Assembly (NCBI GenBank): GCA_004764695.1
Contig: SMSO01000014.1
Coordinates: 5,024,345-5,088,344, forward strand
Source: Schizochytrium sp. TIO01
Taxonomy: Eukaryota > Sar > Bigyra > Thraustochytrida > Thraustochytriidae
DNA: 64,000 bases
Direction: 5' to 3'
Part shown: one piece after another, positions 25,207 through 53,219 of the stretch
Numbering within the stretch: the first letter of the stretch is position 1
How the letters are laid out: the number at the start of each line of letters is the position of its first letter
Position numbers and translations under genes: made by a program
The notes under the pieces: model-generated
What the model saw: only the letters and a program-made list of their open reading frames with translations
The model's database searches: none
What the model was told of the DNA's origin: nothing

Positions 25207-25965
25207 TATTGGGCTTGGCATTATCTAACTCGTAGAAGGAGTAGAAATGCAGATATTTATTGCTTACATACACTATAAGAAAGAAAGAAAAAGAAGAAAA
25301 GAAAGATATGATGATAGTTTGGATTTGGTGTTTGGAGGTCTCTTGCTAGGTAGGTATTAACACAACGTCAGGCCTCGTGGGGCTACTGACGCGAGCACTG
25401 GCCTCGAAACCTAGTCGGGTAGAGGGTTGGTTCCCTTGCAGGAGTGGCGCGCTAGTGCGCAGTTCTACTTCAATATCTTCAGGCTTCGTTCGTTACTTTT
25501 AGCTACCAGGTATCTCTATCTATCTCTCTATCTACTGAGCTGTAGGTTTAGAGCGAGGCAAAAGAAAGCCGAAGAAGTCTTGCTTGCTTGCTTGCTTGCT
25601 TGCTTTGCAGGAATTCGAGGACAGGGACGAGGGCAAAGGCTCATTATTGATCAGCAAAGGCGCCTTCGTAGTTGTGTCGTGTAGCTCAATTCACAAGATT
25701 GTGTGGTGCAAAGTTCTGAGGGTTTGACTCATCTGCAACGAAGCTCGCTCGTCGAAGTAGCGGAAAGCAAGCAAGGCTGTAACTCGTGTGACGCCTTACG
25801 GTTGCTCTGGAGTCTTTAGGGGCACTGTCCTGGTGGCGAGCTGGAAAAGGAATCCCAGCCTATCATACATCTTCTAGAAATTACGCATAAAACCTCTGTG
25901 ACAGGCTCAGATTAGTCAGAAGTAGTCTTAGTTCGCTGCTTTGATCAATTGCGAGAGTGGACAAA

Positions 25966-27843
25966 ATGTCGAGCCCAAGCCCGAAGAATGCTGACAGGTC
26001 GCACTGGGTTAAGGACGAGTTTGTTCTTAGTTGCGATGCCTGCGACACCAAGTTCACCATGTCGATTCGAAAGCACCACTGCAGAAAATGCGGATCTGTG
26101 TTTTGTGCTCGCTGTGCATCAAAATACGCGCCCCTCCCAGAACTTGGTTACCCAAAGAACTCACCACAGCGTGTCTGTGAAAGCTGCTATACCAAGGTAA
26201 CAAGCGGTGAGTCGGGTGCCACGAGTACTAATGTGGACCACTGTGACGCCACTGTTGAAGGCCTCAAGCGCCTGTACCGCGCAGGCATTAAGCCGCTCGA
26301 AGTGCAGTTCAAGTTCGGAGAGTTCTACTCGCCAGTCATGACGGATGCTGACTTCGATGCGAAACCTATGGTTCTGCTGATCGGCCAGTACTCCGTGGGT
26401 AAAACATCTTTCATCCGCTTCTTGGTAGGCCGCGACTTTCCCGGCCAGCGAATTGGACCAGAGCCCACAACTGATCGGTTTACTATTGTTGCGGGAACCG
26501 ATGATCCTACCGCAAGCGACAGCGTAATTCCTGGAAATGCCCTTGCCGTTCAGTCTGACAGGCCTTTTCGATCTCTCCAACGGTTTGGTGCTGCATTTCT
26601 CGATAAACTCGAGTGTGCTCAAACAAGTACCTGCGCTGAGGGCGGTAAGGCTGATATTCTCAACCTCATCACGTTTGTAGATACCCCTGGTGTATTGGCT
26701 GGCGAGAAGCAACGCATCGGACGCTCTTACGACTATACTGGTGTTGTGGAATGGTTTGCAGGCCGATGTGACCGCATTCTGCTTCTTTTTGATGCGCACA
26801 AGCTTGACATTAGCGACGAATTCCAAACCGCTATTGCTGCACTTCGAGGACATGACGAGAAGATTCGCGTTGTCCTTAACAAAGCAGACTCCATCGACGC
26901 GCAGCAGCTCATGCGGGTGCACGGCGCACTCATGTGGTCATTGGGCAAAATTATTCGTACCCCCGAGGTCGTGCGCGTTTACGTGGGCAGCTTTTGGGAC
27001 AGCCCTGTGCAAAACCGCCTATTCGAGGACCTCTTCCGCAAGGAAAGTAAAGACCTCATTGACGATCTAAGGTCCTTGCCTGGCTCTGCCGTAACCCGAA
27101 AGGTTAACGAGGTAGTAAAGCGTGCTCGTGCGGCCAAAACCCACGCTCTTATTGTAGATCACCTTCGAAACAAACTTCCTTTCTTTGGCAAAGAAAAGGC
27201 TTTGAACAACATGCTTGACAACCTTGAAGCGGAGTATGAAGAAGTTCATCGCAAATATGGTGTTCCCTTGGGCGATTTCCCACGCCCCGAGACATTTCGC
27301 CGAGCGCTAAAGACCCATACGGACAACGACTTGTCTCAATTCCCGCCCCTCAACCAACGTATGATTGTGGAACTTAATGAAATTCTCTCGTCGCAGCTTC
27401 CTCGCCTCCATGCCCGCCATACAGCCGAGGCAGGCCGAAAGCGGGCTGCTGGTTTGAAAAAGGTCAATGGTGAGGATAACCCGTTTGGTTATGAGAGGGG
27501 TCATGAGAACAGCTCCAATACTGGTCAGTGGGCTATTGACCCTGAATCTTTGGCTGTTTACGCTGGTGAATTCGATGCGCTTGGACCTGTTGCCGATGTG
27601 GACGGTAAGCGCAAAATCCCAGGGGCTCAAGTTCGCGATGTATTGTTGGCCTCTGGAGTTCCCAAATCGAGCCTCCGCCAAATTTGGGAGCTCAGCGATC
27701 TTGATCAAGATGGCTCTCTCACCCTAGATGAATTTGCGATCGCCAAGCACCTGATCGAGACTATTGCTCTCAAAGGAGAGCCTCTTCCTGAGAAGCTTCC
27801 GGCTTCTTGGATTCCTCCTGCCCCAGCACGCAGAGGTGCCTAA
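25966..27843 (+). CDS. FYVE-EHD-EH fusion: membrane-remodelling dynamin-like ATPase
   Basis: EHD proteins are dynamin-related ATPases that tubulate or cut endosomal membranes. This 625-residue protein starts at the ATG at 25966 (AAAATGT). Residues 14-77 form a FYVE zinc finger with HWVKDE, two early CxxC pairs, the phosphatidylinositol-3-phosphate-binding RKHHCRKCG and the closing RVCESC. The EHD core follows. P-loop GQYSVGKT is at 140-147, switch residues at EPTTDRF, DTPG at 239-242, and NKAD at 305-308. Helical-domain sequence and an internal NPF (505-507) come next. A C-terminal EH domain spans about 520-615 with EF-hand loop DLDQDGSLTLDE (578-589), and LPASWIPP ends the protein. Animal EHDs have the C-terminal EH but no FYVE. 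The extra finger suggests PI3P-directed targeting to early endosomes, which is inference. Confidence 0.95.
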   Translation: MSSPSPKNADRSHWVKDEFVLSCDACDTKFTMSIRKHHCRKCGSVFCARCASKYAPLPELGYPKNSPQRVCESCYTKVTSGESGATSTNVDHCDATVEGLKRLYRAGIKPLEVQFKFGEFYSPVMTDADFDAKPMVLLIGQYSVGKTSFIRFLVGRDFPGQRIGPEPTTDRFTIVAGTDDPTASDSVIPGNALAVQSDRPFRSLQRFGAAFLDKLECAQTSTCAEGGKADILNLITFVDTPGVLAGEKQRIGRSYDYTGVVEWFAGRCDRILLLFDAHKLDISDEFQTAIAALRGHDEKIRVVLNKADSIDAQQLMRVHGALMWSLGKIIRTPEVVRVYVGSFWDSPVQNRLFEDLFRKESKDLIDDLRSLPGSAVTRKVNEVVKRARAAKTHALIVDHLRNKLPFFGKEKALNNMLDNLEAEYEEVHRKYGVPLGDFPRPETFRRALKTHTDNDLSQFPPLNQRMIVELNEILSSQLPRLHARHTAEAGRKRAAGLKKVNGEDNPFGYERGHENSSNTGQWAIDPESLAVYAGEFDALGPVADVDGKRKIPGAQVRDVLLASGVPKSSLRQIWELSDLDQDGSLTLDEFAIAKHLIETIALKGEPLPEKLPASWIPPAPARRGA

Positions 27844-47867: not shown

Positions 47868-50800
47868 TCACTCAGCAGCAGGCGATGAGGGCGAGTACGC
47901 CGGGCTGGCCGGGGAATACGCTGGGCTAGCCGGAGAGTAGGCTCCGCCACCAACCGCTGGTGAGCTTGGGCTGTAGCTCGGCGAGGCAGGCGAGTACTGT
48001 TGGTTGTACTGTGCTGCCGGGGAGCTTGGCGAGTAAGCAGGAGACATCGGCGAGGCTCCGTAAGCCTGAGCTGGAGACGACGGGCTGTACGCTTGAGCAG
48101 GGCTGCTGGGACTGTAAGCCTGGGCTGGAGATGATGGACTATAAGCCTGAGCTGGACTGCTGGGGCTGTAAGCTGCCGCAGGGCTGCTGGGGCTATACGC
48201 TGCAGCAGGGCTGCTGGGGCTGTAGGCTGCGGCGGGGCTACTTGGGCTGTAGGCCGCGGCAGGACTGCTGGGGCTGTAGGCCGCGGCAGGGCTACTTGGG
48301 CTGTAAGCCGGACTGCTGGGGCTGGCTGCACCACCATACATGGGGCTGGTGGGGGATGCGTAAGCAGGCGAGTTGGGGCTGTAAGCCGGGCTACTGGGTG
48401 AAAAACCGCCACCATATCCAGGGGACTGAGCACCTGCAGAGCTCATGCGGTTGTACGAGGGCGAGGCACCTGCAGCAGGAGATTGCGGCTGGTACGCTGG
48501 AGAACTTGGTTGATATCCAGGCGAACTAGGCGAGAAGCCGGGAGACATTGGGGAGCCACCAGGTCCGGGAGAGAAGGCACCGTCGGCGCTGGGAGAGAAT
48601 GGTGCAAATCCACCAGGACTCATCGTGGGACTGAAGGCACCAGCCAAGGGTGTGGCCATGCCAGCGGAGGCTGACACATGTGGATCGAGGACACCCCCGT
48701 CGTTCGCCACATCCTCCTCAGCATCAATTTCAATAGCATCCTTGAGCATATCTTCGTCAATGAAGAGTTCGAAGGCACCAGTACCAATCGGCGCAAGCTG
48801 ACCAAGCATGATGTTTTCAGAAACAGCAGCAAGAGGATCACACTCGGAAAAGGCAGCAGCATCCATGAGCAGCTCGACAGTCTCCTCAAAAGAGCAGCGC
48901 TGAAGGGGTCCAGAACCATTGCGGTTAATACCATGACGTGTGACGGGCTGGAGTTCACCACGGGCAGCCATAACATCACAAAGCATTGACAAATGACGGT
49001 AGTTTACATAACTACCATCAAAGGAAATGACAGCACGAATTTCGTTCAAAAGGGAACGACGCAGGGCCTCTGCACCGAGAACTTGCCAAATCTCGATACA
49101 GTGGTTGGATACTGTACGCGTGTGGTCGACACCAGGTTGGGCCAAAATGGCCAAAAGGTTAGTTCCGTCGGTATCAAGAACCCACTCTTTCTTATCGTAT
49201 TCTGCACCGGTCTCGGGATCCCAACCCTTCGCCTTATCGAATTCACGGACAAAGCACTTTTTAATATTAGGAATACCACGAAGACGAAGGTTGTCGAGAA
49301 GCTCGGTCTCGAGACGACGAAGGAAGATAAATTCATCAATACCATGGAGCTGCTCCTCCTCGACAACGGGGGCCTGGGCCTCTCCATCCTCGCCGTTTGC
49401 CTCGCCGTCCTCCTTTGTTGGTGCACCACCAACGTTAGAACGCACAATGCGAATGTGAATAATACACTCTGGACTGTTATCATCGTTAACGATGCAGTGC
49501 AGAGTATCACCAAAGTCGTTCTGAATGGTCTTCAATAGTTCGTTGTTCGAGATCTTCTTGAAGCGCATGAGCTTCTTCTCCGCAACAATGCGCAAGAGCC
49601 ACGGGGAAAGTTGGTCAGCACGGATATCCGAGTCGCCTTCCATCTCCCAGAAACCAGAAACGAAGTCACTATCTTCTTCCACACAAGTGTTTTCTGGATC
49701 CGGATCAAAGATGATGCTGGTCTCAGTCGCGAGCTCACGCAGACGCGTGTACTCAAGACGAGACATGACCTCAGACGCACGAGCTTCCGTGTTACGGTGT
49801 TCTTGATCCAAATATACAGTAACAGAGGGTGTCTTTACGTTTTTGGCACCGTTAATCACCTCCTTGAGACGTGGCACACCAAGTGTTACGTTCTTTGCTG
49901 ATACACCAGCAAAGTGGAAGGTGTTAAGGGTCATTTGTGTAGCTGGCTCACCAATGGACTGAGCAGCAAGCACACCACACATTTCACCAGGGTTCACCAT
50001 GGATTTGAAGAAGCGCGACTCGATCTGACCAATCAGACTGCGGAAAGCATCACGGGTGAGACGATGCTTTACAAGGATAACCTTGGATGCCAGCGAGCTA
50101 CGAATAAGAATCTTGATCAGCTTGGTGGCGTTATCTTGAGCCTCACGGGAAAGAGGGTCGTCACCAAGCACAACGACAAGGCGGTCGCAGAGATTAGAAA
50201 CGTCACGCACAATTTCACATGGGTCCAGATCAGATGTACGGTTCTTGTCAATGTGGTACGTGTGTGAAACATTCCAGATCATACGCGAGACGTTGACAGG
50301 AAGATGCAAGGTCTCCTCCATTGCCATGACACCACCAGGCTCACGCTCGGCCGCAATAGTACGCAAGAGGGTTTGGTCGCGACGGAGCTGATCCGCCTCT
50401 TCGTTGAGGATCTCCACGGCTTCAGGGTCGTTGCGGAGTTTGAGCGTAATATTAGGCAACAAGTAGGGCTTTCCGTGGTGTGTGCCAAAGTCAGCATCGT
50501 CGACGCGATAAACAAAGGTATCATCAAACTCACGCTTGCTGAGACGAAGCAAATCAAAACGCTGGGACTCAACAAAAGCACCATCCATGCCGTCCTCACC
50601 ATAAAGGAATTGGATAATATCACCACGACCATTACGCACAGTGTTATCATAACGCACACTGAGATCCTCAAGAGCCTTAACGAGACGACGCTGAATATAA
50701 CCAGTCTCAGCTGTCTTACAAGCAGTATCAATGAGACCTTCACGACCACCCATGGCGTGGAAGTAGAACTCCTGAGGGGAGAGACCCTTGAGGTAAGAGT

Positions 50801-53219
50801 TTTCGACGAAACCACGCGACTCGGGACCAAGATCATCCTTGTAAAAGTGCGGCAGGGTACGGTAGCGGAAACCAAAAGGAATACGCTGACCCTCAACGTT
50901 TTGCTGACCTACACAACCCATAATTTGAGAAATGTTAATGAAACTTCCCTTGGAACCAGAGGTCACAGTGGCCTTGAAGTTGTTTTCCGCAGTAAGAGAC
51001 TTGACAGACTCCTTACCGGCGTTATCACGAGCCTCGTTGAGACAAATGTTCACATGATCCTCGAAACTCTCCTGCATAGTACGTCCGGGCTGGACCTTGA
51101 GCATTCCGCGCTGACCTTGTTTGACGAGATCAGCGACCTTGAGCTTGGCAGTTTCAAGGACGTCACGAACCTTGGCCAAGGTGGCGTCATCAGCCACTGT
51201 ATCACCAACACCAACGGTGAAACCGTAGTGGAGAATGAAGTGGTTGCTAATCTTTTGAATCTGGTTCATGAGAATACGGGTAACCTCAGGACCCATTTCG
51301 TTAAAGCACGTGTGCACCAGGCCACCCTGTTTAGCACCGAGTGTAGACTTGTCAATAATACCAGTGATGATTTCACCATTTTGAATGAGTACCTGTGTAT
51401 CTTCAGGGTTAAGATCACGCGGAAACTTCTCCTTGTTGTTATGGCCGTTAGCGCGTGCAGTCAAGTTGATACCATGCGGGACGATCTGGCTGAACACCTG
51501 CTTACCAGTCCACAGAGCATGATAGCTTCCAGCGCGTGTCTTATCTGGGACCATAATGGCTGGAATAGGGATGTTACCTGTGAAGTCCTCGACCCACATG
51601 AGTTGGTTAAAGACCTCATTGCGGTTAAGAAAAATGTCACGGCGAGTCATGCGCCACGATCCCAAAAGGGAGTCCTGCACAATACCCATGACAGGACGGT
51701 TACTTTGGGGGGAGACAATCACCTTGTTCACCATCATGTTGGTTTCTGCCTCGGCACGGGCTGTCAGGCCCTGAGGCACGTGCAAGTTCATCTCATCACC
51801 ATCAAAATCAGCGTTGTAAGGGGACGTCACACTAAGGTTCATGCGGAAAGTGGACCAGTACATGACACGGACACGATGTCCCATGATACTCATCTTGTGC
51901 AACGATGGCTGACGGTTGAAGAGCACAACATCATCGTTGGCAAGGTGACGTTCCACAATCCATCCAGTCTTGAGCACAATGTCATTAGGGTCGCTGTAAC
52001 GCAAATCCATTTTCAAACCCTGATCGTTGATAATGTAGCGTGCACCGGGGTGTTTGTCCGGACCATTCTGGACAAGAGCTTTGAGGCGCTTGAGGTTGAA
52101 CGCGGTGACTCGCTCTGGCACGGTCAGATTGAGAGCAATCGACCGGGGCACACCGACTTGGTCAATACTCAAGTTGGGATCTGCCGTAATCACAGTACGG
52201 GCAGAAAAATCCACACGTTTACCCATGAGGTTACCACGCACACGACCCTCCTTACCAACAAGACGCTGACGAAGCGTTTTCAAAGGCTTTCCGCTCTTTT
52301 GGCTCGCCTGAGCCTGGTACGGCAATTGGTTATCCACAAAGGTGGCGCAGTGGTATTGCAGCACCTGGATATACTGATCCAGCACGTGATCTGCGTCACC
52401 ATTTCGCTCACAGTGGAGCACGGCCAGGTTGGCCTTGACAATGTCACTCAGCTTGTGAGTAAGATCATCCTCACAGCGAGCAGCACCACCCATACTCACA
52501 CTGGGGCGCACCTGGGGTGGCGGCACAGGGAGGACCTGAAGAATGAGCCAGGAAGGATGGCACCACTTGGGGTCAAGGCCCAGCTTGCGAACATCATCAT
52601 CGGATATCTTTTTGAGGATCTCAAGAGCCTGCTGAGCGGTGAGTCGCTGCTTAGCCTCTCCAGTTCCAGGAATCTGATCTTTGTTTGCCTTTTCACCAAA
52701 GTCCATCATGATCTTAAGACCATCCTTGCGGTAGCGAGGCTGCGGCAGCTGAGAGCGCGGGCAGGTAGTAAAACGCGCAGAAAGTTTGCTGAGCGCTCCG
52801 AGCCGGTTCTTGCCGTCAAGGAGCTTGAGCTGTTCCCACGCGACTAGATCGTCTTTATCAGTGAAGAGAAGACCTCCATCATAGAAAGACACACACCGTA
52901 AAATTGCCAACACAGTGTTAAGAAATCCCACATGATAGACTGGCCGGGCCAATTCGATGTGGCCAAAGTAGCCAGGGTGGTTATTATCCCCCATAGCAGA
53001 ACCCATACGAGGGTCATTCACACCACCACGAACCGCCTCACCATCACGGTACGTCTCATGGGAAGTGATACCGGCTGGAATAGGTCTTTCATTCCGTACC
53101 ACGAGTTTCTGTGTTACAGAGTATCCCTTGAGCTCTTCAGGCGACATCACACTAAACTGAATGCGGTCAATCCGCTTCCACGGCACCGTGGAAAACGGGA
53201 AGAGATGAGAGGAAGCCAT
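47868..53219 (-). CDS. RPB1: RNA polymerase II largest subunit RPB1
   Basis: Catalytic subunit of RNA polymerase II, 1783 residues in one uninterrupted frame from ATG 53219. Core landmarks are intact. Switch and lid sequence includes [20 protein letters not shown] (322-341), and the metal-A motif [10 protein letters not shown] has Asp471, 473 and 475. Also present are the funnel, the bridge helix ([20 protein letters not shown]) and the trigger loop ([19 protein letters not shown]). The late [17 protein letters not shown] and [14 protein letters not shown] (1468 on) mark the class II end. VSAS... to 1783 is a proline/serine CTD. Most of the usual N-terminal clamp zinc ligands are missing (residues 69-165), and the CTD repeats are nine residues long; both are described as findings. 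The CTD is what separates it from RPA1 and RPC1. Confidence 0.97.
   Translation of the reverse strand: [1783 protein letters not shown]
48063..48305 (-). repeat. RPB1 CTD nonapeptide repeat block
   Basis: Nine consecutive 27-base units encode residues 1639-1719: five YSPSSPAAA followed by four YSPSSPAQA. Flanking CTD units are looser ([21 protein letters not shown]). Confidence 0.95.

Follow-up and report, generated by a model that had tools for sequence, protein, structure and literature searches.

The clamp of RPB1, the largest subunit of RNA polymerase II (Pol II), holds two zinc sites near its N-terminus: in PMC8020760, Zn8 is given as a CxxC-CxxH site in the clamp core and Zn6 as a clamp-head site made of a CxxC pair and two cysteines further on. 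The clamp zinc sites are described as invariant and essential, and even the RPB1 homologue of a swine virus retains two zinc motifs (PMC10881513). Here we analyzed a stretch of 64,000 nucleotides from Schizochytrium sp. TIO01 (contig SMSO01000014.1; hereafter, the window), in which the RPB1 gene on the reverse strand encodes a protein lacking most of these ligands (Table 1).

The protein has the domain content of a Pol II largest subunit, with 7 Pfam RNA_pol_Rpb1 families all above their cut-offs in the domain search. Its translation contains the NADFDGD catalytic motif (residues 469-475) and a C-terminal domain (CTD) of heptad-like YSPSSPA-type repeats with spacer residues. A sequence-only reading of the window had described the rest of the enzyme as conserved and the frame as unbroken, which agrees with the 1783 residues read without interruption. 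The top solved chains were Pol II RPB1 (~1670 bits), followed by RPC1 (729) and RPA1 (485); the RPC1 and RPA1 of this genome were identified separately, and the trees were built from RPB1 rows only. The clamp zinc sites were treated as a conserved character and not as part of the definition of RPB1. Among the matches listed, the closest named relative is a protein of Hondaea fermentalgiana (88% identity), a thraustochytrid of the Labyrinthulomycetes, and a 100% identical protein in the protein database (P0002) derives from a 16,930-base contig.

In an alignment of 223 proteins, 7 of the 8 clamp zinc ligands are absent from the window RPB1, with C153 of Zn6 the sole ligand left. At Zn8 the ligands C-C-C-H are replaced by gap-M-H-Y, as the sequence-only reading had noticed in reporting no CxxC, a Cys changed to His and a His changed to Tyr; we take H81 and Y84 to be the equivalents of C77 and H80 in yeast numbering. 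The G-to-PG stretch of Zn8 counts 8 residues and no cysteine in the window protein; in intact RPB1s it carries CxxC...C and is 18 residues long in 112 of the 126 measured (range 17-39). At Zn6 the ligands C-C-C-C become S-D-C-S. Both cysteines of the pair are gone (S111-F-Y-D114), as had been stated, and the neighboring C109 is a widely conserved cysteine outside the eight ligand positions. The claim that the later Zn6 segment is also lost stands for the fourth ligand, now S156, and for the loop between ligands 3 and 4, which is deleted, but not for the third ligand, C153 (codon 52761-52763), which is retained and had been overlooked. The loss is invisible to a family search alone, because the score of the Pfam domain remains far higher than the cut-off.

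Table 1 Features of the RPB1 gene and its former clamp zinc sites (window coordinates)
Feature	Position	Strand	Remark
RPB1, Pol II largest subunit	47871..53219	(-)	1783 aa open frame; stop codon 47868-47870
N-terminal clamp, residues 1-340	52200..53219	(-)	predicted by the model to fold like other Pol II clamps, zinc ligands missing
Former Zn8 site, residues 68-87	52959..53018	(-)	CxxC...C hairpin excised
Former Zn6 CxxC pair, residues 109-114 (CVSFYD)	52878..52895	(-)	ligand cysteines replaced by S111 and D114
Former Zn6 ligands 3 and 4, residues 153-164	52728..52763	(-)	C153 retained, fourth ligand now S156

The 223 proteins came from two protein searches (best 120 matches each) and are no census of eukaryotes. 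Since organism names are missing from many rows, the group names used here (labyrinthulomycete-type, diatom, green-lineage-like) rest partly on identity and on the tree. Ten proteins cut short across these sites (P0012, P0135, P0223 and another seven, of states ---- and --CC) and P0100, which has an odd start, were kept in the survey table and not counted for a missing site. Among the matches listed, all eight ligands are present in 127 of the 223 proteins. The loss is not peculiar to the window gene, as it runs throughout the sampled labyrinthulomycete-type proteins and, in part, occurs in diatoms. Twelve labyrinthulomycete-type RPB1s were found among the matches listed, including the window's own; the 11 that reach both sites lack both (11/11), each keeping C153 as its only remaining ligand, and the twelfth (P0012) starts downstream of Zn8 and lacks Zn6. 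These proteins come from several sources, transcriptomes included (P0004 and P0005 bear MMETSP names). A related group (P0014, P0028, P0096 and P0122) has lost both sites with no ligand left (4/4), so that Zn8 is missing from 15/15 proteins of the two groups that reach it. The Zn8 linker measures 7 residues in 8 of the 11 labyrinthulomycete-type proteins (8, 8 and 10 in the other three) and in all four of the related group. That this is real divergence and not sequence error, as had been suggested, is strongly supported by the same loss in all 11 labyrinthulomycete-type proteins reaching both sites. A masking intron was also considered and rejected, since the frame is open and the transcriptome-named P0004 and P0005 show the same absence.

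In a tree built without the clamp-head columns, the 16 labyrinthulomycete-type and related-group rows form one side of a branch (SH-aLRT 100), and a subset of 11 of them was supported at 100/100 in a second tree. The related group is sister to the labyrinthulomycete rows at 92 in the first tree (not starred) and unresolved against P0011 in the second; its position as sister is less sure. Over residues 82-116, which lie between the lost ligands, the window protein shares 71-100% identity with nine other labyrinthulomycete-type proteins. The whole region 67-170 is conserved less than the body of the protein (341-1490) in 8 of 9 comparisons, and constraint is therefore clear for only part of it: the middle (82-116) is clearly constrained, with the former ligand loops varying more. 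Two records in this part of the sample are unusual. P0096 is labelled Batrachochytrium salamandrivorans BASA81, a chytrid fungus, and looks like a contaminant or mislabelled sequence given its place inside the zinc-less stramenopile clade. P0008, a thraustochytrid-type RPB1 of 2243 aa, carries the domain annotation PF14890, presumably an intein domain.

Protein and domain searches of the window genome (64.06 Mb, 37 contigs) returned one Pol II RPB1. Neither a second Pol II-type RPB1, such as a plant Pol IV/V paralogue, nor a copy with intact zinc motifs, for which the sequence-only reading had proposed a search, was seen among the 23 protein and 8 domain matches listed, and a 620-bp segment matched the genome once, at 100% identity. 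The other polymerase subunits of the same genome retain their cysteines, i.e., CKTC...CTGHFGH and CKNC...CPEC in the Pol III largest subunit, CPTC...CPGHLGH and CPLC...CHSC in that of Pol I, and CTLC...CRNPNC in RPB2, the second subunit of Pol II. Loose patterns for both sites were matched by 105 of the 120 best RPC1-type proteins listed, including the six nearest, to which the genome's own and those of Hondaea and Mucochytrium quahogii belong (among matches listed). The 15 without a match are truncated (n = 6), Zn8 variants missed by the pattern, with cysteines present (n = 3), proteins with a wider second Zn6 pair (n = 5), and P0305 of Thalassiosira exigua, in which Zn8 is present and the first Zn6 pair seems absent; the other four of five named diatom RPC1s checked (P0278, P0279, P0286 and P0289) match both patterns. 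Since Pol I, Pol III and RPB2 keep their cysteines, the change probably concerns the Pol II RPB1 clamp and is not a cell-wide saving of zinc. Judged by alignment and gene content, the loss of both clamp zinc sites is genuine, specific to Pol II and common to the labyrinthulomycete-type proteins sampled; elsewhere, losses are partial or parallel.

Two further observations were made in the window and its genome. An open frame at 25945-27843 (+) of the window combines a FYVE zinc finger, an EHD-type dynamin and EH domains, a fusion that, to our knowledge, is not common. Largest-subunit pieces lie at C2:108200-158433, C1:202147-233411, C31:5832388-5893410 and C30:1762991-1764835, in open frames of 844-901 aa (two with one internal stop); in three of the four sets a second piece of 520-549 aa lies roughly 28-58 kb away. 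The pieces resemble the split polymerase subunits of archaea and viruses, and suggest endogenous elements of large DNA viruses. Mirusvirus-like elements, which occur in thraustochytrids, are one candidate.

Among the matches listed, 62 of the 223 proteins lack Zn8 and keep Zn6 as CCCC, and the readable names among them are diatoms and the pelagophyte Chrysophaeum taylorii. The Zn8 linker is 7 residues in all 60 of these that could be measured. In Triparma laevis (P0181), too, Zn8 is missing and Zn6 intact; the 7-residue linker ends in a cysteine before PG (SLHELGC-PGYFGH), at the position of the third ligand, perhaps a remnant of the excision. A green-lineage-like group (P0109, P0128 and P0134) lies in the tree beside the streptophytes (land plants and charophytes), and its loss is therefore taken as an independent event. 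Four short RPB1-like proteins of 1477-1506 aa (P0205, P0209, P0215 and P0222), perhaps viral, have Zn8 as C-D-C-Y and an intact Zn6.

A tree of 34 rows requires Zn8 to have changed at least four times and Zn6 at least twice. In AU tests under a simple model (LG+G4), with groups named after the tree was seen, a single stramenopile-wide loss of Zn8 was rejected (p 0.0016) and a single loss among the ochrophyte rows was borderline (p 0.047). These results point to more than one loss of Zn8, and the excision is mostly of the same size across the separate lineages. Transfer of the clamp segment alone from diatoms was not supported, because the segment tree does not place labyrinthulomycetes with diatoms; the pelagophyte Chrysophaeum joins the labyrinthulomycetes there weakly (90/93). 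Given this placement and the equal excision length, some shared history is possible.

The clamp was modelled from its 340 residues, and this model was used instead of an 880-residue one (pTM 0.47), in which the domains are misplaced and the rmsd to most whole chains is about 25-26 Å. Many of the relatives aligned for the clamp model bear zinc and could bias it towards the usual fold, and the former Zn8 turn (block 71-80) is the model's less sure part, with a pLDDT of 77 (66 in the longer model). On this prediction, the likeliest outcome of the loss is a fold retained through metal-free packing. The zincs would have served as structural staples, not as catalytic parts. At Zn8, excision of the metal-holding hairpin would have left a short turn without metal. 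The Zn6 site would have lost the loop joining ligands 3 and 4, and its ligands would have decayed; the compact CxxC...CxxC of diatoms, which are not ancestral, illustrates a possible intermediate. The clamp core and head would then fold as in other Pol II enzymes, with packing in place of metal, and the clamp would continue to open and close on DNA, working with the usual factors. The cause would be specific to the Pol II RPB1 clamp, either a relaxed need for the metal or Pol II-specific contacts. A further-reaching account, clearly below an even chance in our view, would be that labyrinthulomycete Pol II has a naturally zinc-free clamp that arose in steps (excision of Zn8, shrinkage and later decay of Zn6), that the same excision recurred independently in diatoms and their allies, and that clamp mechanics and factor contacts on the RNA-exit side were rewired only in Pol II, leaving Pol I and Pol III with the ancestral zinc clamp.

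A Pol II-specific change of partner, by which an altered or replaced factor at the clamp head or core freed the zinc knuckles, is possible but rather doubtful. It fits the confinement of the loss to RPB1 among the three largest subunits, and Donaldson and Friesen reportedly described, in 2000, a yeast zinc-site mutant whose enzyme was without Rpb4 and Rpb7. Altered partners had also been proposed by the sequence-only reading, but no changed partner was identified. The window genome has single matches for Rpb4, Spt4 (covering part of the model only) and TFIIE-alpha, and two for the Rpb7 family, of which L024 reads as the Rpb7 of Pol II and L023 as its Pol III counterpart; there is thus no gross loss of clamp-side partners. 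Those partners that were read look ordinary, and TFIIE-alpha keeps its zinc-ribbon cysteines (CPRC...CERC).

A rearranged site that goes on binding metal through C109, C153 and a nearby His, Asp or water is unlikely. The retention of C153 in all 11 labyrinthulomycete-type proteins leaves some room for a partial or different metal site, C109 is kept in 15/15, and H81 takes the place of the third Zn8 cysteine in 9 of 11. Against this, C109 is found in most RPB1s and lies outside the eight ligand positions, C153 is absent from all four related-group proteins, the H81 position is N in 2 of 11, and no set of four candidate replacement Cys/His ligands is conserved near either site in the labyrinthulomycete-type and related-group proteins.

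Those groups with losses that can be named (diatoms, a pelagophyte, a bolidophyte and thraustochytrids) are largely marine, and this, with the apparently repeated loss of Zn8, could speak for adaptive sparing of zinc in zinc-poor sea water. We consider this very improbable: sparing should also touch RPC1, RPA1 and RPB2, so that the cysteines kept by all three in this genome count against it, as do the named diatom RPC1s, most of which match both motif patterns. An assembly chimera, a pseudogene or a hidden zinc-bearing second RPB1 has next to no probability, as the long frame is open, the segment matches the genome once, a single Pol II RPB1 was seen among the matches listed, P0002 on its 16,930-base contig is identical, and relatives from other sources (Hondaea and the transcriptome proteins) share the state.

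No report of this zinc loss was found in the open-licence literature, as judged by titles and abstract openings among the matches listed. One or both sites appear to be dispensed with by entire protist lineages, in the window genome in Pol II only, and the generalization of invariant clamp zinc sites does not hold in the lineages seen here. They offer a natural test of whether the clamp zincs serve structure or the docking of partners, and bear on the evolution of Pol II in stramenopiles.

Given the observed patterns, we conclude with good, though not full, confidence that in a labyrinthulomycete of thraustochytrid type the window gene encodes the one, conventional largest subunit of Pol II, which has lost both N-terminal clamp zinc sites and would keep the fold without metal. 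With the RPB1 of yeast and human (PDB 7zs9_A and 9ehz_A) it shares orthology, all Rpb1 Pfam domains, NADFDGD, a heptad-like CTD and, by prediction, the clamp fold; those proteins carry Zn8 and Zn6, whereas the window protein retains one of the eight ligands. Diatom RPB1s (e.g., Skeletonema menzelii P0021 and Thalassiosira oceanica P0049) resemble it in the excised Zn8 hairpin, with a 7-residue linker before PGYFGH, but keep Zn6 as a compact CxxC...CxxC. The green-lineage-like proteins resemble it in the loss of Zn6 (0 or 1 of 4 ligands left), but their Zn8 is altered to C-D-C-Y or C-D-Y-Y in a stretch that is still 18-19 residues long. Unlike the window RPB1, its paralogues RPC1 and RPA1, the largest subunits of Pol III and Pol I in the same cell, keep both zinc motifs.
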